Source of the DNA: Saccharopolyspora thermophila
GTDB lineage: Bacteria > Actinomycetota > Actinomycetes > Mycobacteriales > Pseudonocardiaceae
Direction of reading: 5' to 3'
Assembly: GCF_014646075.1 (NCBI RefSeq)
Contig: NZ_BMMT01000022.1
Location: 1-64,000, forward strand
DNA length: 64,000 bases
Position numbers and translations under genes: made by a program
Notes under the pieces: generated by a model
Database searches by the model: none
Seen by the model: only the letters and a program-made list of their open reading frames with translations
Told to the model about the DNA's origin: nothing
Shown: positions 10,914 to 27,614 of the stretch, piece after piece
Numbering within the stretch: the first letter of the stretch is position 1
Layout of the letters: each line of letters begins with the position of its first letter

Positions 10914-12056
10914 TCAGAAACCCATTCCACGCCCGATGATCTCCTTCATGATCTCGGTGGTGCCGCCGTAGATCGTCTGGATGCGCGAGTCCAGGAACGC
11001 CTTCGCGACCGGGTACTCGGTCATGTAGCCGTAGCCGCCGTGCAGCTGCAGACAGCGGTCCACGACCCGCTTGTTCAGCTCGCTGAGCCACCACTTGGCC
11101 ATCGCCGCGTGCTCGCCGTCCAGTTCACCGCGAACGTGGTCCTGGACGCAACGATCGGTGAACACCCGGCCGATCTCCACCTCGGTGGCCATCTCGGCCA
11201 GTTCGAAGCGGATGTGCTGGAACGTGCCGATCGGGCGGCCGAACGCGGTGCGGTCCCGGCAGTACTGCTTGGTGAGCTCGAGGACCTTCTCGGCGGTGGC
11301 GGCCGCGGCGACGGCGATCGACAGCCGTTCCTGGGGCAGATTCTGCATCAGGTAGATGAAGCCTTTGCCCTCCTCGCCGAGGAGGTTGCGGGCGGGCACC
11401 CGCACGTCGTTGAAGAACAGCTCGGCGGTGTCCTGCGCCTTCTGGCCGATCTTGTCGAGGTTGCGGCCGCGTTCGAACCCGGGCATGCCGCGTTCCACCA
11501 CCAGCAGGCTGATGCCCTCGTGCCCGGCGTCCGGGTCGGTGCGGGCCACCACGATCACCAGGTCGGCGAGGATGCCGTTGCTGATGAAGGTTTTCTGCCC
11601 GTTGAGCACGTAGTGGTCGCCGTCGCGGACCGCGGTGGTGCGAATGCCCTGCAGGTCGCTGCCCGCGCCCGGTTCGGTCATGGCGATCGCGGTGATCAGC
11701 TCGCCGGAGCAGAACCCGGGCAGCCAGCGCTGCTTCTGCTCCTCGTTCGCCAGCGCGATCAGATAGGGGGCGATGATGTCGTTGTGCAGCGGTGAACCGA
11801 ACCCGGAGACGCCGGCGGCGACCAGTTCCTCGTCGAAGACGACATTGAAGCGGAAGTCGTCCACGCCGCCACCGCCGTAGCGCTCGTCGACAGCGAAGCC
11901 CAGCAGCCCCTGGGCGCCGGCGGCCAGCCACGCCTCGCGGCTGACCACCCCGGCGGCCTCCCACTCCTCGGTGTGCGGCACGAGTTCCCTGGCGATGAAG
12001 GCGCGCACCGTCTCGCGGAACGCCTCGTGCTCGGGTTCGAACAGCTCCCGGCGCAT
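10914..12056 (-). CDS. Acyl-CoA dehydrogenase
   Basis: 380 residues. N-terminal helical domain (FRETVRAFIAREL), middle beta domain with AMTEPGAGSDLQGI, and C-terminal helical domain with RTAFGRPIGTFQ, LHGGYGYMTEYPV and IYGGTTEIMKEIIGR. All are classical FAD-dependent acyl-CoA dehydrogenase signatures. It introduces the 2,3 double bond in fatty or branched acyl-CoAs. ATG 12056 follows GAGAGGAAG; two tandem copies of the GGGAAC repeat lie immediately upstream. Its neighbour, an alpha-methylacyl-CoA racemase, suggests beta-oxidation of branched-chain or sterol side-chain acyl-CoAs. Electron acceptor presumably ETF. Confidence 0.9.
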   Translation of the reverse strand: MRRELFEPEHEAFRETVRAFIARELVPHTEEWEAAGVVSREAWLAAGAQGLLGFAVDERYGGGGVDDFRFNVVFDEELVAAGVSGFGSPLHNDIIAPYLIALANEEQKQRWLPGFCSGELITAIAMTEPGAGSDLQGIRTTAVRDGDHYVLNGQKTFISNGILADLVIVVARTDPDAGHEGISLLVVERGMPGFERGRNLDKIGQKAQDTAELFFNDVRVPARNLLGEEGKGFIYLMQNLPQERLSIAVAAAATAEKVLELTKQYCRDRTAFGRPIGTFQHIRFELAEMATEVEIGRVFTDRCVQDHVRGELDGEHAAMAKWWLSELNKRVVDRCLQLHGGYGYMTEYPVAKAFLDSRIQTIYGGTTEIMKEIIGRGMGF

Positions 12057-13274: not shown

Positions 13275-13658
13275 GCCACACCCCTCCAAGCCCTGTGTCG
13301 CGCACCACGAAGCACGACGCGACCAGTGTTACACCGCAACTGTCACGGAGGTCAACACGCGACCCGTCCGGGCAGCGTTCTCCGGAAGAGCACCTGATCA
13401 GCTGCATTGTCCTCCACTCCACCGCCGCACCGAAGCCTTCGACGTCATGAGCAGCGGTGGCACGGATGCATCCGCACTCGTTGGGGCGCGCGGCTGATCA
13501 GCGCATGGCAAGGGTGATGTACCCCGGCAGCAGATCGAGGAGGCCCTGATCGCGGTTCTCGACGCGAAGCGCTGGCCGACCAGTTCATCCTCGGTGCGGG
13601 CGCGGCCAGGCTCCGGAGCGCCGCGAATCCCGGCGGGAGCCAGACGTTCCGCGCACGG
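13275..13658. other. Intergenic, no gene supported
   Basis: The promoter of the racemase operon must lie in its right-hand neighbourhood. Short frames in the rest show no protein-like pattern. None of the dispersed GGGAAC repeats is present. Confidence 0.4.
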
Positions 13659-13916
13659 CTAGCGCAGCCTCGGGGGACGGGTCCGGAAACGCGTAGGTGC
13701 TTCTTCCTGACCGCGGGCCTGGTCGACCGCGTGCTCGAGCTGGTCGGTTAGTTCTCTGACGAGCCGTTGCAGGGAACCACTCCACTCTGGACTGACCCCG
13801 AGGCGGACCACCCGCCGCTGGAGGGCGCTGAGGAGGTCGCGGATCTCCGCGTACTCGCGCTGCAACTCGTCGATCACATCATCAGTATGAGTGGCCTGCA
13901 CCACACGGGCAGACAT
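13659..13916 (-). CDS. Small helical protein, hemerythrin-like start
   Basis: 85 residues from ATG 13916. The first helices read DDVIDELQREYAEIRDLLSAL and LQRLVRELTDQLEHAVDQ, reminiscent of the first two helices of HHE cation-binding (hemerythrin-like) proteins. The protein is too short for the full four-helix fold and has only two of the usual metal-binding His residues. It may be a truncated hemerythrin or an unrelated helical protein. The basic C-terminal tail has no counterpart in the family. It stands alone, divergent from the MerR gene. Confidence 0.45.
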   Translation of the reverse strand: MSARVVQATHTDDVIDELQREYAEIRDLLSALQRRVVRLGVSPEWSGSLQRLVRELTDQLEHAVDQARGQEEAPTRFRTRPPRLR

Positions 13917-13985
13917 CGTTCCGGTAACCGTTCGGGCAACAGACCCGGTCGTAACCGCCGCAGCGCGACCATCGCGCGTCAGACC

Positions 13986-14058
13986 TGCCCGGGGCGGAGC
14001 ACCGTCGACGCGGTGGACTGCCGGACCCTCTGGGGATGGAGACCGTCCGCCCCGGGCA
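13986..14058. ncRNA. Candidate structured RNA or long hairpin in intergenic DNA
   Basis: Perfect 13-bp arms (TGCCCGGGGCGGA at 13986-13998 and its complement at 14046-14058) enclose 47 bases. Inside, CACCG...CGGTG (14000-14015) forms a second hairpin and CCC...GGG a third, giving a branched fold. It sits in the 411-base region between the small helical gene and the MerR gene. A 12-bp palindrome (TGGTGATCACCA, 14191-14202) follows. No T-tract is next to it, so a simple terminator is unlikely. It matches no RNA class I know. Confidence 0.3.
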
Positions 14059-14296
14059 AGCCGCGCGCCGGTTTCCCGGCACCGCCGATCGTGGGACACG
14101 CGAGCGAGTGAACAGCAGAGCACAACGTCCCGGGACCACTCTCGGACAGAGGTAAGCGCCTCCCGGCGGTGGACACCCGGACTGCGGCCTTGGTGATCAC
14201 CACCAGGTCCCCCAACACCGGGTATCAACTCCCGCGCCCTGGCAGCGAGACGACCTCGGAACGCGATGATCACAGCACTGGTGCGACATCGTTGGT

Positions 14297-14318
14297 GTTA
14301 CAGCAGCCCGGAGGTAAC
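14297..14318. promoter_or_regulatory. Candidate MerR-type operator
   Basis: GTTAC and GTAAC half-sites are separated by 12 bases just upstream of the MerR start codon; the second half overlaps the GGAGG ribosome site. The position suits autoregulation. Inference from pattern only. Confidence 0.3.
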
Positions 14319-14327
14319 GTTGCGGGC

Positions 14328-15044
14328 ATGCTCCGAACTGCGGACGAAGAGCTCACCATCGACGAACTGGCCGCCCGCGCCGGAGTCACCGTGCGGACCG
14401 TTCGGTTCTACTCGTCGCGCGGCCTGCTGCCGCCGCCCCGGCTGCGCGGGCGCCTCGGCCTCTACAGCGGCGACCACCTCGCCCGGCTCGAGCTGATCCG
14501 CGAACTGCAGGGGCTGGGCTTCACGCTCTCCGCGATCGAGCGCCACCTGGAGCGCATTCCCGCCGACGCCTCCGCCGACGAACTGGCGTTGCAGCGGGCG
14601 CTGATCGCCCCGTGGACCGACGAACACGCCGAGGACCTGGAGCGGCACGAACTGGACCGCCGCGCCGGTCGGCATCTCGACGACGCGCTGATCGACCAGC
14701 TCGTCGAGCTCGGCATCCTGCAGCGCATCCCCGACTCGACGCGGCTGCGGCTGCCCAGCCCGGCGATGCTCGGCGTCGGCCTGCAGATCCTCGACCTCGA
14801 CCTGCCGCTGGACATGCTGGTGCAGGCCAAGGGAATCGTCGAGCAACACACCGCGCAGATCGCCGCGGAGCTGCGCGAGCTGTTCGCCGCGAACGTGCTG
14901 CGCCCCTACGTGGAGCGGGGCCGTCCGGAGGACGAGCGGGAACGCGTCCGCGCGGTCACCGACCAGCTGCGTCCGCTGACCATCCAGGTGCTGGTCAACG
15001 GGTTCCAGCGGGCGGTGAACGACGTCATCCGCGACCACGTGTGA
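14328..15044 (+). CDS. MerR-family transcriptional regulator
   Basis: 238 residues from ATG 14328, preceded by GGAGG. Residues ~8-75 are the winged-helix MerR DNA-binding domain (LTIDELAARAGVTVRTVRFY, then YSGDHLARLELIRELQGLGF). The C-terminal ~160 residues are helical and acidic, without the Cys ligands of metal sensors, so a small-molecule or acyl-type ligand is more likely. It is followed on the same strand after 110 bases by an acyl-CoA synthetase gene, the likely target besides its own promoter. Confidence 0.85.
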   Translation: MLRTADEELTIDELAARAGVTVRTVRFYSSRGLLPPPRLRGRLGLYSGDHLARLELIRELQGLGFTLSAIERHLERIPADASADELALQRALIAPWTDEHAEDLERHELDRRAGRHLDDALIDQLVELGILQRIPDSTRLRLPSPAMLGVGLQILDLDLPLDMLVQAKGIVEQHTAQIAAELRELFAANVLRPYVERGRPEDERERVRAVTDQLRPLTIQVLVNGFQRAVNDVIRDHV

Positions 15045-18849: not shown

Positions 18850-19408
18850 TCACGCCGGTGCGGGCTCAGGTTCGCGGGCCCAGCGGGTCGGGTCGCCGGT
18901 GATGATCAGGCACGTGACCGTGATCAGCGCACCGACCACGAGGTAGGCGGCGATCGGCCAGGACGCCCCGCCCGACAGCGTCAGCAGGCTCGTCGCCAGC
19001 AGCGGGGACAGCCCGCCGCCGAGCACCGAACCGCCCTGGTATCCCAGCGAAACCCCGGTGTAGCGGACGTTCGTGGTGAACAGCTCCGCGCAGAACGCCG
19101 CCATCGGGCCGAACACCGCGGCCGAACCCGCGTACCCGAACGTCATCGCGAGCACGATCAGCGCCGGGTTCGCGGTGTTGAGCAGCCAGAACATCGGGAA
19201 CGCGTACACCGCCAGGAAGATGCCGCCGCCCAGCATCACGCGGGTGCGGCCGAGCCGGTCCGACAGGTGCGAGAACAGCAGGATTCCGGCGATCTGCGCG
19301 GCCGATCCGCACAGGCTGCCCAGCAGCATCAGGTCGCGGGTCGCGCCGAGCTCCTCGGTGCCGTAGGTCAGCAGGAACGTGGTGAGGATGAAAATGAACG
19401 TGTGCCTG
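18850..19408 (-). pseudogene. C-terminal half of an MFS transporter interrupted by a 7.4-kb insertion
   Basis: Reading leftward from 19408, the frame gives about 185 residues of a major facilitator C-terminal half: HTFIFILTTFLLTYGTEEL, GILLFSHLSDRLGRTRVM (the conserved inter-helix loop), and FGPMAAFCAELFTTNVRYTG, ending EPEPAPA. This is the metabolite:H+ symporter style. There is no own start with a ribosome site. Its missing first half lies at 26857-27614 in the same orientation. Joining the two at CCTG gives 1,317 bases, exactly 438 codons plus stop, through a natural ...GLLRHTFIF... junction. Confidence 0.9.
19405..19408. other. attL core (CCTG) of the 7.4-kb insertion
   Basis: CCTG at 19405-19408 is repeated at 26853-26856. 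It is the only sequence shared at the two broken ends of the transporter gene, and short cores of this kind are typical of large serine integrases. The exact crossover dinucleotide within it cannot be fixed from one sequence. Confidence 0.65.
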
Positions 19409-19666
19409 TCCCCGATGGGGCTCGCCAGGATGGAACGCGCCTATCTCCCACGTATCGAGGCAGCCGAGAAGCGGGCCGCGGAACTGCGCATCCCGTCCGT
19501 GCTCCGCCACGTCGTGCGACCGGACATCGCCCGGCATTGGCCGACGTTGGACATGAACCAGGAACGCGAAGTTCTGCGGGCGCTCATGGAGATTCACGTG
19601 ATGCCGGCCGGGCGGGGGCGCAGGGTGGACCCCGTCGACCGGGTGAACATCACGTGGGTTCGGTGA
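19409..19666 (+). pseudogene. C-terminal stub of a large serine integrase
   Basis: The last ~77 residues read ERAYLPRIEAAEKRAAELR, then a long helix with REVLRALMEI, and end in AGRGRRVDPVDRVNITW. That ending (A-G-R-G-R-x-x-D-P-x-R-V-x-I-x-W) is the standard C-terminus of actinobacterial large serine recombinases of the phiC31/pSAM-like resolvase-integrase class. The catalytic resolvase domain and zinc domain are absent anywhere in the element. The stub abuts attL, so most of the gene was lost after integration. It ends at TGA 19664-19666. Confidence 0.75.
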
Positions 19667-19699
19667 AGCTCGGCCTCACCGCGAGATGCTGGGGCGCCG

Positions 19700-20152
19700 T
19701 CACGATGCGGGCGATTCGGTGGCTACCGAGGCGACCAGGGGTGCGCGGTTCTGCAGGATGTGGATCGGGACGTTGGGAACCGTAGGCGGTTCCGTCTGCT
19801 CGCCCGGCCGTCCCTCGATGTTGGGCTTGGCCATGCCGATGCTCGCGACCGCGGCCAGGGTCGAGGCGACAGCCGTGGTCGTTGCTGGGTGTTCGCGGGC
19901 GTACCCCTGAAGGCGCCCGGCGGGTCCCGTGCTCTTGACGCTGCGCAAGTGGCGACGATGCCGGGGCTGCGATGGGGCGGGTTGGTCGACCAGTCGCAAC
20001 GCGGCTTCGTACTGGTCAATGCGCCGTTGCGCCCGGTGCGCATCCTGCCGTGCCTCTTCTGCATCTTGGCGAGCGCGGCGCGCACAGCGGATCGCGCAGA
20101 CAGCTAACGCGATGGTGACCACCAATGCCGCTGTGAACATCAGTTCGAGCAT
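19700..20152 (-). CDS. Membrane-anchored coiled-coil protein of the element
   Basis: 150 residues. An N-terminal membrane segment (MFTAALVVTIALAVCAI) is followed by a charged coiled coil (RRARQDAEEARQDAHRAQRR) and a Pro/Thr-rich tail with a second weakly hydrophobic stretch (TTTAVASTLAAVASIGMA). The ATG at 20152 has only a weak ribosome site; ATG at 20140 is an alternative. No family recognised. It is the last minus-strand gene beyond the graspetide genes, separated from them by a terminator-like hairpin. Confidence 0.5.
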   Translation of the reverse strand: MLELMFTAALVVTIALAVCAIRCARRARQDAEEARQDAHRAQRRIDQYEAALRLVDQPAPSQPRHRRHLRSVKSTGPAGRLQGYAREHPATTTAVASTLAAVASIGMAKPNIEGRPGEQTEPPTVPNVPIHILQNRAPLVASVATESPAS

Positions 20153-20260
20153 GAGCCGATGCTCTCTCGCGGGTGGCGGTCGATGCCAGATTCAACCGGC
20201 CGCGCTGACCGAGGCCGCGAGGGCGTCGAGCGTCCTCCGGGATGACCTGCACGACGAACA

Positions 20261-20290
20261 CGCCCCGCACCGGTCACCAGGTGCGGGGCG
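20261..20290 (-). terminator. Hairpin after the graspetide operon
   Basis: CGCCCCGCACC (20261-20271) and GGTGCGGGGCG (20280-20290) pair perfectly over 11 bp with an eight-base loop, 39 bases past the tgmC stop. Likely terminates the tgmA-tgmB-tgmC transcript. Confidence 0.65.
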
Positions 20291-20329
20291 CATTCCCGTT
20301 CTGCCGCGGCGCAGCCGTTCAGCCGCCCA

Positions 20330-21481
20330 TCACAGGTCGGTGACCGGGTTCGAGGGTTCGTCGAGCCAGACGCGGTGTTTCCCAGCCTCGACGGTGAGGC
20401 CGAACCGGTCGCGGGCCGGGCTGCCGAGCGCCTGCCATTGCTGGTGCGCGCGCTCGATGGTGTCCCACAGCCGGGCGGGGCCGCCTTGGCGCACGAGGTG
20501 TCGGCCGAGCTCTGGGGTGGTGTGGCAGACCCATGATCCGTCCGGGCGGATGAGCCAGGTTTCGGGCGCAGAGCCGTCGGCGGAGGTGAAGCCGATCCGG
20601 CTGTACGGGCCGGTGTGCAGGGCGGCGAAGAACTCGAACTCCCGCCCCGTGGCGACGTCCACGGCCAGGCTGGTCGGCTCGGGTTCGGTGGTGGCGGCGT
20701 CTCGGTGCGGGATGGTGGCGGCCGGTATCTGCTGGTCTCGGGTGGGCATGAACATGCCCGCGTCCGGGAGGAACGCGCCCTCGGCCCGGCCGTCGTCGAC
20801 GGTGAGCCGAGCCAGCAGCCCCCCGACCGTGAGCGGGGCGAGGATGATGCCGCCGGGGCGGGTCTGGTCGATCCACGCGGCCGGGATGCGGTGCACGCCG
20901 ACGGTGGCGATGATCCGGTCGAACGGCGCCTGCTCGGGGCAGCCGTCGCGGCCGTCGACGGCGGCCAGGTGCGGGGTGTAGCCGAGCTTGACCAGGCGGT
21001 CGCGGGCGAAGTCGACCAGCACGGGGTCGACGTCGACGCTGGCGACGTGGTCGCTGCCCAGCCGGTGGCAGAGCAGGGCGGCGTTGTAGCCGCTACCGGT
21101 GCCGATCTCCAACACCCGGTGCCCGTCGTGGACGTCGAGGGCTTCAAGCATGAGCGCCATCAACGACGGCGCCGAGCTGGAGGATGTCGGCTGACCGGTG
21201 ACGGTTTCACCGCGCCGGGCGGCCAGCACCCCGTCGGGGTTGTTGTCGATCTGGGTGATGTGCGCGGCGTTGCGGTACACCCCATCGCGCCATTCGTCGC
21301 TGCGCTCCAGCAACCGCCAGCCGGGCCGGTCGGTGCGCGCCTCGAAGTAGTACGGGACGAACAACCCGCGGGGCGTGTCGCTGAACGCGGCGATCCACGC
21401 GGGGTCGCGCAGGTAGCCCTCGCCGGTGAGCTGGGCGACGAGTCGGGCCCGCAGGGCTTCGGTTTCGGTCGTGGTGGTCAC
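20330..21481 (-). CDS. tgmC: PIMT-like methyltransferase of a graspetide (ATP-grasp RiPP) system
   Basis: 383 residues. The SAM-binding Rossmann motif is HRVLEIGTGSGYNAALL (~125-140) with DHVASVDVDP after it, as in protein-L-isoaspartate O-methyltransferases. It is much longer than a housekeeping PIMT (~210 residues) because of a C-terminal extension of ~160 residues. That size and the tgmB partner fit the methyltransferases that act with ATP-grasp peptide ligases. In characterised graspetides (fuscimiditide, amycolimiditide) the homolog methylates an Asp of the ester-crosslinked peptide, leading to aspartimide. GTG 21481 overlaps the tgmB stop by four bases (GTGA). Intact here although tgmB is frameshifted. 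Confidence 0.85.
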   Translation of the reverse strand: MTTTTETEALRARLVAQLTGEGYLRDPAWIAAFSDTPRGLFVPYYFEARTDRPGWRLLERSDEWRDGVYRNAAHITQIDNNPDGVLAARRGETVTGQPTSSSSAPSLMALMLEALDVHDGHRVLEIGTGSGYNAALLCHRLGSDHVASVDVDPVLVDFARDRLVKLGYTPHLAAVDGRDGCPEQAPFDRIIATVGVHRIPAAWIDQTRPGGIILAPLTVGGLLARLTVDDGRAEGAFLPDAGMFMPTRDQQIPAATIPHRDAATTEPEPTSLAVDVATGREFEFFAALHTGPYSRIGFTSADGSAPETWLIRPDGSWVCHTTPELGRHLVRQGGPARLWDTIERAHQQWQALGSPARDRFGLTVEAGKHRVWLDEPSNPVTDL

Positions 21482-22423
21482 AGAGGTCTCTCCTGGGTCA
21501 GGGCGTCGGCGAGCGCGGTGGTGATCTGATCACGTAACGGGTGGTCCCAGGCCCATTGACCCGCCGGATTCGCCTCAAGGAACCACCACCGGCCGTCGTG
21601 GTCGACGGAGAAGTCGCACGCGGCGAACCGCAGGTCGAGGCGATCGAGCAGCACCACCAGGCGGGCCCGCACCTCGGCCGGGATCTCGACGGCCTGCCAG
21701 GTGTTCGCCGCGTGGTCGACCCGCCAGTCCAACTGCGCCGCACCGGATTCCGTGCGCGGGGCGACCGCGAACACCCGCCCGTCAACGCGGGTGACGCGTG
21801 CGTCGAATGCCTTGTCGATGCGGTGCTGTAGCAGGATCGGGGCCACCCTCACCGACTCGGCGTGGCACTGCTGCGGGGGTGACCTCGGTGGCGTAGAACA
21901 GCCGCGGCTGCCCGTCGATCTCAACCGGGATTCCCCGGAACGCCTTGTAGAGCACCGGGTTCGCGCGCTCGGCGAACTCCGCGGCCTTCTCCGGGTCGTT
22001 GGTGATCAGCGTGTCCGGGACGGGCAAACCCGCCTCGGCGGCCTGGGCGAGCTGGTAGGGCTTGTGCTCGGCGGCATGCACCGCCGGGGGCCAGTTCACC
22101 CACGTGGCGCGGGGAAGGGCTGCGAGAAGACCCCGCAGCCCCCACCGCTGTTCGGTCTCGATCCACTTGGCGGCATCCCCGCTCACACCCTCCGTCGCGG
22201 TCGGGTTGGTGGGCCGCCGGTAGTAGATGCCCGTCACGTCGTCGACCTTCACCGCGTGGTGGCGGGTGGCGAGAACCCCGCTCCAGCGCGCGCCGTCGAG
22301 CTCGGCGGACACGATGAGGTCGCCGAGGTCGGCCCGCACCAGCGGCACCCCGCGCCGGTTGAGTTCGTCGATCACCACATCGGCGGTGGCGTCGAAACGC
22401 TGGGGCAGAACGAGAACCGCCAC
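21478..22423 (-). pseudogene. tgmB: ATP-grasp graspetide ligase with a +1 frameshift
   Basis: Frame one (22423 down to about 21880) reads a TgmB/MvdD-type N-terminus and central domain: VLVLPQRFDATADVVIDEL, GIYYRRPTNP, and the NPVLYKAFRGIPVEIDG lid region. Frame two (about 21875 to 21478) continues with SVRVAPILLQHRIDKAFDAR, FAVAPRTE and the metal-binding end FAACDFSVDHDGRWWFLEAN. The switch falls in a run of five C's (five G's on the plus strand, 21875-21879). Four C's would give an unbroken 314-residue enzyme reading ...EVTPQQCHAESV. GTG 22423 lies four bases after the tgmA stop. Intact homologs form Thr/Ser-to-Asp/Glu side-chain esters with ATP. Confidence 0.85.
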
Positions 22424-22427
22424 AGGA

Positions 22428-22664
22428 TCAGTCCTCGGTCCAATCCGTGTCGGTCTCGGGCCCGCCGTGCCCGTCGGCGTTGGAGTTGGTCGTGGTCTGC
22501 CCGTCGGAGTGCTTGCACCACGGCGTGTTCACCCCGTCCTCGCCGGGGGCGAGCATGATCTGCCGCTTCGGGTCGAACACCAACCGGGTCAGATCCACCT
22601 CGCTGACCGGAATCGGCTTGCGGGCCGCGACTTCCAACCCGAACGCGGTCACAGATGCACTCAT
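22428..22664 (-). CDS. tgmA: Graspetide precursor peptide
   Basis: 78 residues. The leader carries FGLEVAARKP (residues 8-17) and FDPKRQ (30-35), the conserved recognition elements of ATP-grasp-modified precursors (R-P-F-G-L-R-like and Y/F-D-P motifs). The C-terminal core from W49 is rich in ester-forming residues: CKHSDGQTTTNSN (Ser and Thr donors) and an acidic tail (E70, D72, D74, E77, D78). Two Asp-Gly pairs (54-55, 64-65) are candidate aspartimide sites for the methyltransferase. ATG 22664 follows GGAAGG. The gene precedes tgmB by four bases, the usual order. Confidence 0.85.
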   Translation of the reverse strand: MSASVTAFGLEVAARKPIPVSEVDLTRLVFDPKRQIMLAPGEDGVNTPWCKHSDGQTTTNSNADGHGGPETDTDWTED

Positions 22665-23002
22665 GCTGCCATTCCTTCCTCTTCCGTGATCCCTGGTGAT
22701 CCTCGATGGGGTCCACCGGGGGCGTATACCCCTAGGCGGGTGGCTGTCGCCGCGGACGCATACGCCGAGCCCGGCGGGTTCCCCGGCGCGGTCGGGGCCG
22801 GTTGCGGCCCACCTGCCGCGCGTCGCCCCGTCACGGGCGCACAGGCCAGGCAACCCCGAGCCTGGCCCGTCCCGAATCCGCGGCCGTGCCGCGCCGGGGG
22901 CTGGGGTGGTCGGGCGACCGTCGGGGGGCTCGCCAGTCGCCCGACCGTCCGGGTGCCCATCCCGCCCTGGGGGATCGACGGTCAGGGAACCCGGATTCCG
23001 AA

Positions 23003-23034
23003 CCGGTCGGCGCGCCGGGGGAAGCGCCGACCGG
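23003..23034 (-). terminator. Hairpin after the DUF6244-like gene
   Basis: CCGGTCGGCG (23003-23012) and CGCCGACCGG (23025-23034) pair over ten bases, starting five bases past the stop codon at 23039. It separates that gene from the graspetide operon. The tgmA promoter should lie in the following 338 bases (22665-23002), which hold no gene. Confidence 0.6.
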
Positions 23035-23038
23035 CAGC

Positions 23039-23299
23039 TCAAAAGGTCGCAATCAGGTTGCGGATCAGCGTCCGTACGCGATCCTCCCCGCCCTCCAATG
23101 CGAACGCGGCTTGCTTGTTCGCGTTCAGTTCTTCGAGCAGCGCGGCGACGTTCGGGTTGTTGCTGCCGGTCATCAGACTGCTGACCGTCACGTATGCCTG
23201 CTCGTACGCGGCGGTGACCGCATTCGCGGCGGTGCCCACGGCAAGGATGGCCTCAGGCACCTGGAGCAACGCCGCCTTGACGTCCTCGATGGAACTCAT
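23039..23299 (-). CDS. Small conserved actinobacterial protein (DUF6244-like)
   Basis: 86 residues from ATG 23299 (MSSIEDVKAALLQVPEAIL). Mostly helical, with a central MTGSNNP turn and a C-terminal EDRVRTLIRNLIATF helix. The broken gene at 232-498 is its paralog. The fold suggests a helical hairpin superficially like WXG100 proteins, but the Trp-x-Gly motif is absent. Family assignment is from memory and uncertain; function unknown. A terminator follows immediately. The next gene upstream (a membrane protein) is 130 bases away and may share a promoter. Confidence 0.6.
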   Translation of the reverse strand: MSSIEDVKAALLQVPEAILAVGTAANAVTAAYEQAYVTVSSLMTGSNNPNVAALLEELNANKQAAFALEGGEDRVRTLIRNLIATF

Positions 23300-23429
23300 C
23301 AGGTCCTCTCGTGCTGGGCGCGGTCTGCGCCAATGTGGAACCCGGCGGGGCGGTGAACCGAGGGGCGATCCACCGCCCGCGCCGGGGCGACTCGGTGCCG
23401 GTCGGGGAAGTCACGACACCGAGCCGGGC

Positions 23430-23771
23430 CTACAGGTCTTCGAGCTTGGCCAGCACCCGCCGCAGCAAGCCGGGATGCTTGGCCATGGCGTGACGGTCGT
23501 CGACAGGTAGGCCGGATTCGACGAGCGGCAGGAACCGCGTTTCCTCGACGGCGAGCGCGTCGGCCAGGTCCCCGCGCAGCTGGACCGTGCGCGGCTCGCG
23601 CAGCCGGTGACGGCCGCCGCTCGTCTCGGCCTCGACTCGCGCGACCAGGTAGGCGACGGTCAGCGCGCCCTCGCCTCCACCGGCATGCCGCGCCGGTACG
23701 TAGTAGAACGTCGCCCACAACGCCAGTGCGCCGACGCCGAGCAGTCCGGCGGCGATCAACGCTGTGATCAT
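23430..23771 (-). CDS. Small membrane protein of the element
   Basis: 113 residues from ATG 23771, preceded by GGGAGGGAAG. Residues 1-25 (MITALIAAGLLGVGALALWA) are one membrane helix followed by YYVPARHAGG. The remainder is a charged cytoplasmic domain with RHRLREPRTVQLRGDLADAL. No family recognised. It overlaps the upstream small gene by four bases (ATGA), making a three-gene minus-strand operon 24240-23430 that continues toward the DUF6244-like gene. Confidence 0.6.
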   Translation of the reverse strand: MITALIAAGLLGVGALALWATFYYVPARHAGGGEGALTVAYLVARVEAETSGGRHRLREPRTVQLRGDLADALAVEETRFLPLVESGLPVDDRHAMAKHPGLLRRVLAKLEDL

Positions 23772-23980
23772 CGTTCTTCCCTCCCGTCGACCACGCGGGG
23801 CGGCACGTAGGTGGCGGAATGGTCGCGCAGCGCTGCGGAGACCTCGTCCAACAAATCGGCCATCTCGGTGAGCTGGTGGTCGGTGGCGCGCCGCTCGCGC
23901 ACGTCGTCGGCCAGGTCCTCCAGCACGGCCGCCGTGCGCACCAACAGCGTGTGCAGGGGCGTCGTAGGTTGCTCGCTCAT
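23768..23980 (-). CDS. Small helical protein of the element
   Basis: 70 residues, starting MSEQPTTPLHTLLVRTAAVL, with a continuous helical heptad-like region (LEDLADDVRERRATDHQLTEMADLLDEV). It overlaps the next gene and the previous gene by four bases each, so it is translated within the operon. Probably cytoplasmic; no family recognised. Confidence 0.6.
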   Translation of the reverse strand: MSEQPTTPLHTLLVRTAAVLEDLADDVRERRATDHQLTEMADLLDEVSAALRDHSATYVPPRVVDGREER

Positions 23981-24240
23981 CGCGCGCCGCCCGTCTTGGC
24001 GACCGCAGCGCCCAACATCGGCGGGAGCCCGGCGAGCACCCGCGCCGCGGCGTTGCAGTCCGGGCACGTCTCCCACAACCAGGCGAGTTCATCGGTTTCG
24101 GCCTTGACGCGGCGCTCGCACAGCGTCGTGACGTCGGCTCCTGTGGCGTACACGTTCCCGGCGCTGTGCGGGTCGGTGCTCGCGTGCCGTTGCCCAGCGG
24201 CGGGCACCCAGTGGAACGGGTGAGGCCGGTATGTGGCCAT
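23977..24240 (-). CDS. Zinc-finger-like small protein
   Basis: 87 residues from ATG 24240, placed by CAGGAGGTC. It contains HPFHWVPAAGQRHA near the N-terminus and a TLCERR...TCPDCNAAARV pair of Cys-containing segments, which together look like a CHCC zinc site. Similar proteins commonly accompany XRE/DUF397 genes in actinobacteria. First gene of a minus-strand operon divergent from the DUF6879/XRE module, with a palindrome in between. Confidence 0.65.
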   Translation of the reverse strand: MATYRPHPFHWVPAAGQRHASTDPHSAGNVYATGADVTTLCERRVKAETDELAWLWETCPDCNAAARVLAGLPPMLGAAVAKTGGAR

Positions 24241-24293
24241 GGTGACCTCCTGTGGTGCTCGGGCCACGCTGAGCATGGACCACAAGAAACATC

Positions 24294-24307
24294 CGCGAAG
24301 CTTCGCG
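24294..24307. promoter_or_regulatory. Palindrome between divergent operons of the element
   Basis: CGCGAAGCTTCGCG is a perfect 14-bp palindrome in the 176-base divergent region; TTGCGCGAAC about 60 bases later resembles one half of it. It is a plausible binding site for the XRE regulator encoded downstream. Inference from position and symmetry only. Confidence 0.35.
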
Positions 24308-24416
24308 AACAACTCACCCAGTTGGGCCAAGGCGTGCGTGTGGTTCCTGGCGTTCGCTGGTGGTTGCGCGAACCGTGCGCGCTTGGTTCACTACCGGCCG
24401 ACAAGGAGAGACCGAC

Positions 24417-24617
24417 ATGAAGCTCACCCACCTCGGCACCACGAGCGGCGGCGGCGGCTGCCCGGAGCTGTACGAGACGGACCGGGACACCTACGTCGTG
24501 CAGGGAACGCGAATCACCGACCCCGAGGCGTTGGCCACGCTGCGCGAACGGGGGCTACCGGACCACGAAACCGCTGTCGAGATCCCGAAGGCCCTGCTGC
24601 GGTTTGCGAGGGACTGA
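24417..24617 (+). CDS. Small protein upstream of the DUF6879 gene
   Basis: 66 residues from ATG 24417, preceded by AAGGAGAG. It begins MKLTHLGTTSGGGGCPELYE and continues with TYVVQGTRITDPEAL and a PKALLRFARD end. Proteins with this look are frequent immediate neighbours of DUF6879 genes in actinobacteria. The downstream gene begins two bases after its stop. No biochemical function known. Confidence 0.65.
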   Translation: MKLTHLGTTSGGGGCPELYETDRDTYVVQGTRITDPEALATLRERGLPDHETAVEIPKALLRFARD

Positions 24618-24619
24618 CC

Positions 24620-25150
24620 ATGGTTGATCTGGTCTCAGGTGCGGAGTTCGACCGGCTGTTCCGAACGTTCCGCGACACGGCGTTCCGGCTGGAAACCCAA
24701 GGCGTCTACCGGGAACCAGTCGAGGACGAGCCGCTGCGGCGGTTCCTGAACGGTGAACCGCCGGACGACTCGTGGCTGGCGCCCTGGACCGACAACGTCC
24801 GGGCCGCGACGAGCGAGGGACGCAAGTTCCAGCGCGTCCGGGTGCTCACCGAGCCGTTGACCGACTACCTGCGGTTCGAGATGGACCTGGCGCTGCGGGC
24901 GAACCTGCCCGCAGGAGAAGAGATCCGCAGCTTGTCGATGTCCAAGGCCGAGTCCCTGGGGTTGCCCATCGGGACCGACTTCTGGATGTTCGATGACGAC
25001 CGGGTCGGCGTGATGCACTTCGGGGAACGGGGGATGCTCGGCCTTGAGATGATCACCGACGTGACCGAGATCGAGCGGTACCGGCAGTGGCGGGACCGAG
25101 CGTGGAGCGCCGCGGCACCAGCCGAGGAATGGGCCGTGCTGGTGCGGTGA
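24620..25150 (+). CDS. DUF6879-family protein
   Basis: 176 residues. Characteristic pattern: EFDRLFRTFRDTAFRLETQGVY at the start, then GRKFQRVRVLTEPLTDYLRFE, LSMSKAESLGLP, DFWMFDDDRVGVMHF and IERYRQWRDRAW at the end. DUF6879 proteins almost always stand beside an XRE regulator and are thought of as part of small regulatory or conflict modules; their activity is unknown. The XRE gene starts 13 bases downstream on the same strand. Confidence 0.75.
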   Translation: MVDLVSGAEFDRLFRTFRDTAFRLETQGVYREPVEDEPLRRFLNGEPPDDSWLAPWTDNVRAATSEGRKFQRVRVLTEPLTDYLRFEMDLALRANLPAGEEIRSLSMSKAESLGLPIGTDFWMFDDDRVGVMHFGERGMLGLEMITDVTEIERYRQWRDRAWSAAAPAEEWAVLVR

Positions 25151-25163
25151 GGAAGAGGAGAGC

Positions 25164-26012
25164 GTGACCAGCTTCGAACAGCGACGACAGGACTTCGGCG
25201 AGCGCTTGCGCCGCTTCCGAGAAGAAGCGGGCATGACCGGCCGCGAACTGGCGTCTGCGCTGGGCTGGCCGCACTCGAAGATCTCCAAGTTGGAGAACGG
25301 TAAGCAGACGGCCGAGGACTCCGACGTCACCCAGTGGCTCGACGCGCTCGGTGCGCCGGATTCCTCGGTCCGTCAGATGCTCGACGAACTCGCCGAGCTG
25401 CGCATCAGCAAAGCCGCGTGGCGGGCGCAGCTCCGCGCCGGACACCGGGCCCGGCAGCAGCAGAGCTTCGACCGCGAGCACGCCGCCGCCCGCATCCGCA
25501 ACGTCGAATTCGGTGTCGTCCCGGGCCTGCTCCAGACCGCGGACTACGCACGGGCGGTGTTCCGCACCCAAGCCGAACTACTCCAAGTGCCCGACTCCGA
25601 CATCGAAGCGTCGGTGCGCGTCAGGATGCAGCGACAGCAGGTGCTCTACCAGGGCAAAGACATCGAGATCATCGTGTCGCAGCACGCGCTACGGCATCCT
25701 GTCGCGGCGCCGGACGCCATGCTGGGCCAACTCGACCGGCTCGTGTCCGCCGTCGACATCCCAGGCTTGCGGTTCGGTGTGCTGCCCGAGTTCCGACGTC
25801 TGCCCAACATCACGATGAACGGCTTCACCATGCTCGACGACCTGGTGCAAGTCGAGCACGTCTCCGCCGAACTCAGCATCGACGACCCCGACCAGGTCGC
25901 CATCTACCACCGGCTCATGGACCGGCTGTGGCAGGTCGCATGCGAAGGAGACGACGCCCGCGCCATCCTGCAACAACTCGCCGCCGAGTACCGGCACCAG
26001 ACCGAAGGGTGA
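25164..26012 (+). CDS. XRE-family regulator with DUF5753 domain (WhiJ-like)
   Basis: 282 residues from GTG 25164 with GGAAGAGGAGAG just upstream. Residues ~10-70 are a helix-turn-helix (FREEAGMTGRELASALGWPHSKISKLENGK). The remainder is the DUF5753 ligand-binding-like domain (FDREHAAARIRNVEFGVVPG, LLQTADYARAVF, VSQHALRHPV, YHRLMDRLW). This is the WhiJ architecture of Streptomyces. The DUF397 gene overlaps its stop codon by a GTGA, the canonical pairing in which the small partner modulates the DNA-binding protein. Confidence 0.88.
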   Translation: MTSFEQRRQDFGERLRRFREEAGMTGRELASALGWPHSKISKLENGKQTAEDSDVTQWLDALGAPDSSVRQMLDELAELRISKAAWRAQLRAGHRARQQQSFDREHAAARIRNVEFGVVPGLLQTADYARAVFRTQAELLQVPDSDIEASVRVRMQRQQVLYQGKDIEIIVSQHALRHPVAAPDAMLGQLDRLVSAVDIPGLRFGVLPEFRRLPNITMNGFTMLDDLVQVEHVSAELSIDDPDQVAIYHRLMDRLWQVACEGDDARAILQQLAAEYRHQTEG

Positions 26013-26203
26013 CGTCCGTGTCCGTCAGCGCGTGGAGGAAGTCCAGCCACAGCGGAACCCACAACTGCATCGAGGTCAGGCGCTTCGGTGACGGCGCCGC
26101 GGTGCGCGACACCAAGAACCGCGCCGCAGGGTACTTCACCACGACCGCGCCGCAGTGGTCTGCGTTCGTCGACGCGATCAAGGGCGGCCGGTTCGACCGC
26201 TGA
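26009..26203 (+). CDS. DUF397 protein, partner of the XRE regulator
   Basis: 64 residues containing WRKSSHSGTHNCIEVRR, AVRDTKNR and PQWSAFVDAIKGGRF, the three conserved blocks of DUF397. The start GTG 26009 overlaps the XRE stop; a GTG 12 bases later is also possible. In the WhiJ system such small proteins relieve or modify repression by their XRE partner. Confidence 0.85.
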   Translation: MTSVSVSAWRKSSHSGTHNCIEVRRFGDGAAVRDTKNRAAGYFTTTAPQWSAFVDAIKGGRFDR

Positions 26204-26215
26204 CCGCAGATAGAG

Positions 26216-26250
26216 AACCGCCCCCGGCATCCGTGGCGCCGGGGGCGGTT
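26216..26250 (+). terminator. Terminator of the DUF6879/XRE/DUF397 operon
   Basis: AACCGCCCCCGGC (26216-26228) and its complement (26238-26250) form a perfect 13-bp stem with a nine-base loop, 12 bases past the DUF397 stop; TTCCGTT follows. Confidence 0.8.
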
Positions 26251-26363
26251 CCGTTCACATCATGAAGCGCGGCCCGACTGGGCAACGACCCGTTCCGGGT
26301 CCGGCACTCGTGGTGCATCCCTCAATGGATCACACTCGGCCGGGGCGTTCGTCGTTTCGATGC

Positions 26364-26779
26364 TCACCAGTGATCGGCGGGAAGCTCATCAACGGGCACG
26401 ATGCGCTCGCGGCATGCCTCGATGTCCCAGATGCGCGCGAACGTCCGGGGGCGCATCACCTGGCATTCACCACGTTCGTCGGGACTGACCGCCCATTCCT
26501 CGTGGCGGCATCCGGCGCGTTCGGCGTAGGTAGTCGCGTGGAGGCGCAACGTCAGGCACGGGAAGGCGTCCCCGCAGGCGCGCACCCGTCCTCGCCGGGC
26601 CGGTGCAACATGATCTGCTGGCGAGTCACCCACGTGTACCTGCACAGCACCTCGTCCGGCTGCTCGCCGTACTCGTCTCGCAGGCACTCGCGCCACAGCC
26701 ACACCGGCAGATCGCCGGTGAGCCAGTCTGGCAGACCGGTCTGGTCGGAGTCCTCATCGAAGATGCGCCGCTCGCTCAC
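26364..26779 (-). pseudogene. Cys-containing hypothetical protein with a 2-bp frameshift
   Basis: The first frame (GTG 26779) reads VSERRIFDEDSDQTGL, LPVWLWRECLRDEYG and LCRYTWVTRQQIML up to PGEDGC; a second frame then continues CGDAFPCLTLRLHATTYAER, EEWAVSPDERGECQV and ends at 26364. The switch falls in a GCGCGC run (26578-26583). Removing one GC pair gives an unbroken 137-residue protein (416 minus 2 bases is divisible by three). It has several Cys and His residues, but no family is recognised. It is the last gene before attR. Confidence 0.65.
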
Positions 26780-26852
26780 CTCTACACCCCACCTCTTTCA
26801 GCCGCTCACAGGACCGACGGCGAAGATCAGCAGGAAACAGGGTCTAAGAAAA

Positions 26853-26856
26853 CCTG
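26853..26856. other. attR core (CCTG) of the 7.4-kb insertion
   Basis: The second copy of the CCTG shared by the two element ends. It lies where the transporter N-terminal half loses family similarity (…GVNLGLLR, then a chance Phe-Ser-stop). Confidence 0.65.
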
Positions 26857-27614
26857 AGCAACCCGAGGTTCACTCCGGCGGCGAGCAGAATCTGCCGCCA
26901 CGAGCGGGACAACGCCTCGGCGACCGGCAGCCGGGCGCGCTGGCCGCGCTGCCGCAGCCGCGCGAACTCGGGGCTCTCCCCCAGCCGCAGCCGCACGTAG
27001 AGGCCCACGCCCACGAGCACCAGACTCACCAGGAACGGCACCCGCCAGCCCCAGGCGAGGAACTGGTCGCCGGAGATCGCGGTGGCCGCCGCGAAGGCCC
27101 CGGTAACCAGAAACATCCCGGTCGGCGAGCCGAGGAACGTCCAGCCCCCGTACCAGCCATGGCGGTGCGGTGGCGCGTGCTCGACGGCCATCAGCACCGC
27201 GCCGCCCTGCTCACCGCCGAGAAAGAAGCCCTGCACCAGCCGCAGGGTCACCAGCATCAGCGGCGCCCACACCCCGACCTGCCCGTAGGTGGGCAGCAGC
27301 CCGATCGCGGCCGTGCACAGCCCGGTGACGGTGAGGGTGATCACCAGCATGAGCTTGCGGCCCACCACGTCGCCGAAATGGCCGATCACCGCGGCGCCCA
27401 GCGGGCGGGCCAGGAACCCCGCGCCGAACGTGGCGAACGCCAGCAGAGCGCCCACCCACGGGTCACCGGCGGGGAAGAACAGCTTGGTGAACACCACAGC
27501 CGCGGCGGTGCCGTAGATCAGGAAGTCGTACAGCTCGATGGTGTTGCCCACCGCGCTGGCGAACGCCGCCTTGCGCACCGTGGCCCTGCCCGGCTCTGCG
27601 AATGCCGTCGCCAT
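26857..27614 (-). pseudogene. N-terminal half of the interrupted MFS transporter
   Basis: About 253 residues from ATG 27614 (GGAGA upstream). It has the first six membrane helices and the MFS signature loops: GNTIELYDFLIYGTAAAVV (metabolite:H+ symporter family start), RPLGAAVIGHFGDVVGRK and RLVQGFFLGGEQGGA, with PESPEF-like GESPEFARL at the central loop. After GVNLGLLR it runs four residues into the insertion and stops at 26844. With 18850-19408 it reconstitutes a 438-residue transporter. The substrate (organic acid, betaine or shikimate type) cannot be decided. Confidence 0.9.

Follow-up and report, generated by a model that had tools for sequence, protein, structure and literature searches.

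A transporter gene of the soil bacterium Saccharopolyspora thermophila is interrupted by what is most likely a defective integrative element, placed in this MHS-type gene by a large serine integrase at a fixed attB and now devoid of mobility. The window analysed here is a stretch of 64,000 nucleotides (contig NZ_BMMT01000022.1, positions 1 to 64,000) of a 5.36-Mb genome assembled in 59 contigs. In the scenario that we favour, a small integrative element would have integrated in the transporter gene by large-serine-integrase recombination, with crossover at or just 5' of GGGTT-CAACACG in the fixed attB, for which the transporter-gene sequence around GGGTTCAACACG is our candidate. A related but different element would have independently used the same attB in S. 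spinosa. A later deletion, or faulty repair at the left crossover, would then have cost the element attL together with some 400 codons from the start of the integrase gene.

An MHS-family transporter gene split in two

A sequence-only reading of the window had described two minus-strand half-genes about 7.45 kb apart, and our analysis confirmed that they are one transporter gene, genuinely split. The 5' part of this shikimate-transporter-like MFS gene lies at 26860-27614 and the 3' part at 18850-19403, both on the minus strand. A profile search located positions 1-233 of TIGR00883 (metabolite/H+ symporter) in the 5' part and positions 237-399 in the 3' part; both parts belong to a single transporter. 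The shikimate transporter was the top-scoring equivalog for both parts, under its cut-off.

Orthologs were searched in 61 genomes, 22 of which belong to the genus Saccharopolyspora, the window's own included. The gene was uninterrupted in 12 of these 22 genomes (83-90% identity) and interrupted in two, the window's and that of S. spinosa, and eight had no ortholog above ~51% identity; the gene bearing the candidate attB is thus present, whole or split, in 14/22. Uninterrupted orthologs were also found outside the genus in G033 (82%) and G031 (65%). At the insertion site, all 14 uninterrupted loci fetched (L001-L014) read GG[C/G]TTCAA, and the encoded protein reads GFNTF or GFNAF. One in-frame TGA was reported in the ortholog of G017, with the insertion site uninterrupted.

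In the window, ortholog homology stops at GGGTT (26860-26861) in the 5' part and restarts at ACACGTTC (19396-19403) in the 3' part. The dinucleotide CA, located between these two motifs, is absent from both halves. The ends of ortholog homology therefore redefine the inserted DNA as 19404-26859. Furthermore, the dN/dS ratio of the window transporter was 0.14-0.19 against 11 orthologs, compared to ~0.125 among those orthologs, indicating that the gene is only slightly relaxed and, therefore, that the split is of no great age.

A second insertion at the same base in S. spinosa

In S. spinosa, homology to the gene breaks off exactly where it does in the window, immediately after GGGTT. The S. spinosa 5' part, which contains a frame change, reads GGGGTT followed by GGGCAGGTTTTCTTAGACCCTGT, and the 5' part of the window reads CGGGTT followed by GCTCAGGTTTTCTTAGACCCTGT. 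In both, 20 identical bases, CAGGTTTTCTTAGACCCTGT, start three bases past GGGTT, and the sequences are unrelated beyond. In the window, this block occupies 26837-26856 on the minus strand, and the three bases separating it from the gene homology (26857-26859, minus strand) are GCT, compared to GGG in S. spinosa. We consider the 20-base block a putative shared attachment half-site, derived from attP and lying within attR.

Sequences matching the 19-base core of this half-site with at most two mismatches were found in 2 of 390 family genomes, and a search of viral contigs with the core gave no matches. Exact matches in a collection of 84,980 species, from which the window's own record may be left out, were confined to S. 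spinosa and one Akkermansiaceae MAG. The match in the MAG (L047:3930-3948) is probably due to chance.

To place the two interrupted alleles, we used a tree built from 342 codons common to 16 transporter sequences. The S. spinosa allele paired with L009, the intact allele of G006 (support 0.998, 96.8% nucleotide identity), and the window allele stood on a separate branch, at 84.5% identity to that of S. spinosa in the same comparison. Since the S. spinosa allele groups with an intact allele rather than with the window's, its insertion looks independent. Graspetide-type genes are present in both elements, as is what remains of a serine integrase at the end opposite the half-site, and the order is similar: regulator, precursor, ATP-grasp gene, methyltransferase and integrase remnant.

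A single insertion in the common ancestor of both species, followed by divergence of the cargo, would account for the common base, the common half-site, the similar gene order and the stretches of the two elements that can be aligned at 72-74% nucleotide identity. However, the nearest relative of S. spinosa in the set has an intact gene and the interrupted alleles are not sisters, so that precise loss would have had to occur repeatedly. Furthermore, the element proteins are far less alike (methyltransferase, 44%; ATP-grasp, 34-45%; regulator, 31%; two small ORFs, 57-58%) than the transporter parts, which share 79-88% of their amino acids. One ancestral insertion was rejected on the transporter gene tree, and we regard it as highly unlikely. 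These comparisons are best read as two elements that reached one site separately. Large-serine-integrase elements are characterised by a fixed attB common to independent insertions and by a conserved half-site of attP origin at their edge, and both features were found here.

The integrase remnant and the missing attL

At the left edge, the element retains the C-terminal stub of a large serine integrase (19406-19666, plus strand; ~86 codons and a stop), cut at the junction. An integrase stub had already been proposed from the sequence, and alignment to related integrases supports its identity as the C-terminal end. The stub matched proteins in 20 of 296 other family genomes searched, and relatives were found in two viral contigs (45-47%). 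Reading the surroundings of 15 such matches (13 of the 20 genomes and the two viral contigs) placed each match at the C-terminal end of an ORF. The best homolog, L048, contains Resolvase, Recombinase and Zn-ribbon domains. The stub itself had no Pfam match and no match in phage records, and its match to integrase in PHROGs was weak (E 0.0015). The possibility that the integrase gene was split by its own attP was rejected, as L048 used as a query at E 0.01 matched only the stub within the window.

Homology of the stub to these integrases reaches the junction, where it takes in an L-S-P stretch; the CTG of the CCTG at 19405-19408 encodes the Leu of this stretch. Therefore, integrase codons at the left edge are fused to the transporter gene, and attL is gone. 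Some 400 codons of the integrase have been lost along with this attachment site, and the window element contains no complete serine integrase. The proposed insertion into a transporter gene is supported; the statement that the boundaries are all directly readable is not, the left one being this fusion.

In S. spinosa, the matching end holds what is left of a Resolvase domain, with an in-frame stop; it has the same orientation and is likewise fused to the transporter gene, about 40 codons past the crossover. A search of the window's own genome with this fragment, carried out without a positive control, returned no match. We recognised attL in neither genome, and no crossover core common to attL and attR was found. 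Without attL and some 400 codons of its integrase, the window element is not expected to excise itself; loss of mobility would be the consequence, and this copy can probably no longer jump out.

The sequence-only reading had instead proposed an intact insertion with CCTG as the shared core, whose excision would restore a gene of 438 codons. CCTG does occur at both edges (19405-19408 and 26853-26856), the joined frame is open and its length of 1,317 bases is correct. Nevertheless, the left copy lies inside integrase coding sequence and the right copy inside the half-site block common to S. spinosa. The uninterrupted alleles for which that reading had called differ from CCTG at the junction in all 14 cases, the very outcome that it had named as evidence against itself, and CAGG, the coding-strand form of CCTG, is found at the site in 0/14. 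The CCTG join is 6 bases longer than the ortholog site and therefore does not restore the gene; the supposedly natural junction would read GLLRHTF, with four residues (LLRH) where the orthologs have two (FN). The TTCAA of the orthologs and the position of CCTG in integrase codons rule it out as the crossover core, and we give an intact insertion of this kind next to no credence. Thus, where one boundary is a scar, a brief repeat at both edges together with an open frame across the join can mimic a perfect excision site. GC as the crossover dinucleotide (right, GGGTT-GC-TCAGG; left, GACAG-GC-ACACG) is very unlikely. It stands in the correct register at both edges and would give a gene of exact ortholog length with attL intact; yet it requires TTGCACACG as the ancestral site, against TTCAA in 14/14 orthologs, S. 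spinosa has GG at the corresponding place, and the left arm would fall within integrase codons, some 400 from the start of that gene. Capture of the DNA at a chromosome break by end joining, without a site-specific enzyme, would agree with the direct fusion of the integrase fragment to the gene at the left and with the presence of Ku in both genomes. We consider it very improbable, as it leaves unexplained two events at the same base with an identical 20-base sequence. A transposon was likewise rejected, as no terminal inverted repeats were seen by eye in the element ends.

Insertion by a large serine integrase thus remains our preferred explanation. The integrase lineage of the stub would have made the insertion, and TT is the favoured crossover dinucleotide. 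Several observations weigh against this explanation. No intact integrase or attL for the site was found, which makes the link between enzyme and site circumstantial. The two remnants do not overlap (the window retains the C-terminus, S. spinosa a portion of the N-terminal half), and membership in one family is therefore not demonstrable. The stub has no relatives in the other 21 genus genomes, and none of the 15 loci of related integrases adjoins a transporter half or the peptide cargo. In addition, the closest methyltransferases and a copy of the regulator module lie outside this site.

The loss at the left edge is uneven, as the transporter side lacks only CA and the integrase side lacks about 400 codons. 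A tentative, rather doubtful explanation is that the integrase cut attL, or completed only the attR half of the reaction, and that Ku-dependent end joining sealed the broken left end, Ku being encoded in both genomes. Such self-locking would destroy attL and the integrase gene together, in a single event, fixing the cargo in the chromosome. If true, it would explain why about two bases were lost on the transporter side compared to about 400 codons on the integrase side, and why the S. spinosa element also lacks attL and the integrase start at the same end. The uneven loss could also have arisen by chance.

Peptide cargo and comparison with known systems

The predicted cargo resembles a graspetide-type cluster. 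A methyltransferase of the PIMT type encoded by an open frame (20330-21481, minus strand) matches TIGR04188 with 389.1 bits (cut-off, 380), as expected of a graspetide cluster with a methyltransferase. The ATP-grasp peptide maturase (TIGR04187; 21478-22423, minus strand) is spread over two overlapping ORFs in different frames, reflecting either a frameshift or a sequencing error. The ORF at 21782-22423 covers profile positions 1-194 (199.3 bits) and that at 21478-21924 covers positions 187-312 (134 bits), each under the cut-off of 350, so that no maturase in one frame was found. A putative precursor (22428-22664, minus strand) matches TIGR04186 and PF14408 with 20.5 and 21.2 bits, respectively (cut-off, 25). 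Together, the methyltransferase, the two-frame ATP-grasp gene and the sub-threshold precursor are best described, from their profile matches, as a graspetide-type cluster. The minus strand also encodes an ORF with an N-terminal hydrophobic stretch seen by eye and no PHROG match (19700-20152) and a small zinc-finger protein (23977-24330; PF16827). The plus strand encodes a DUF6879 protein (24635-25150) and an HTH_31-DUF5753 regulator of the XRE type (25164-26012), followed by a short ORF without a Pfam match (26019-26203), which we take to resemble DUF397. No transfer or mobilisation genes were found among the element ORFs scanned, a set without some of the small ORFs, such as 23039-23299. A PHROGs scan of 10 element ORFs revealed no virion structural genes, and returned the weak integrase match, the methyltransferase, regulator families and one weak match of unknown function.

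The methyltransferases closest to that of the window are found in S. spinosa (89%) and G021 (84%), both elsewhere in those genomes, and no integrase was detected near either in the 19.9 kb fetched for each. The regulator module of the window (24207-26255) is 86% identical in nucleotides, and its regulator 92% identical in amino acids, to a piece of S. spinosa located outside the transporter gene; therefore, the cargo has also moved or been copied in other ways. The S. spinosa copy (L021:17151-19001 and L022:1-216) sits between blocks matching window positions 13355 and 14270. S. spinosa also carries a second graspetide-type methyltransferase and an ATP-grasp fragment inside a split acyl-CoA synthetase gene (L021:11324-14924; N part, 13635-14924; C part, 11324-11469), beside which lies a fragment that presumably resembles a TnpB zinc ribbon. 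Eight Streptomyces phage records matched the methyltransferase gene. In phages Austintatious (L101:6458-9541) and Alderaan (L102:6458-9534), a methyltransferase, small ORFs and a helix-turn-helix/XRE regulator adjoin repressor or Cro genes, possibly forming a peptide cluster that is carried by phages and lacks an ATP-grasp gene; proteins of L101 are 38% and 28% identical to those of the window. The S. spinosa ATP-grasp protein matched two distant phage records, and a comparison of the element with plasmids returned one record covering 1% of the query.

Two elements with ATP-grasp peptide genes thus share one landing site, and the candidate attB may be useful for integrating vectors, given an intact integrase. 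The element type itself, an integrative element of a large serine integrase, is already known, and the integrase of SP-beta is a large serine integrase. An attB in an MHS transporter gene was not found described: the available portions of the literature searched contained no serine-integrase attB in an MFS or MHS transporter gene, although the supplement of a survey of predicted large serine recombinases and attachment sites (PMC10083194) may list one. That survey follows the same logic as used here, comparing genomes with and without the insertion. Within the genus, the sites of phiC31, phiBT1 and VWB vectors in Saccharopolyspora erythraea comprise an FTR1-family gene, a tRNA-Arg gene and phiC31 pseudo-sites in other genes (PMC13346255); several are likewise within protein genes, but the word transporter is absent from that text. 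Fixed-site insertion in a conserved protein gene is also described for the SP-beta prophage in spsM (PMC4191935), Bxb1 in groEL1 (a study cited in PMC8092301) and Samy in a radical-SAM gene (PMC12924846). Unlike these three, the window element targets an MHS transporter gene, carries a peptide cluster, and lacks attL and most of the integrase, so that excision is not expected to restore the gene. Graspetide clusters with a PIMT-like methyltransferase, as described in two reports (PMC10787088, PMC13001092), also bring precursor, ATP-grasp enzyme and methyltransferase together, and the window methyltransferase scores above the TIGR04188 cut-off; in contrast to them, the ATP-grasp gene of the window lies in two frames and its cluster resides inside the relic of a mobile element.
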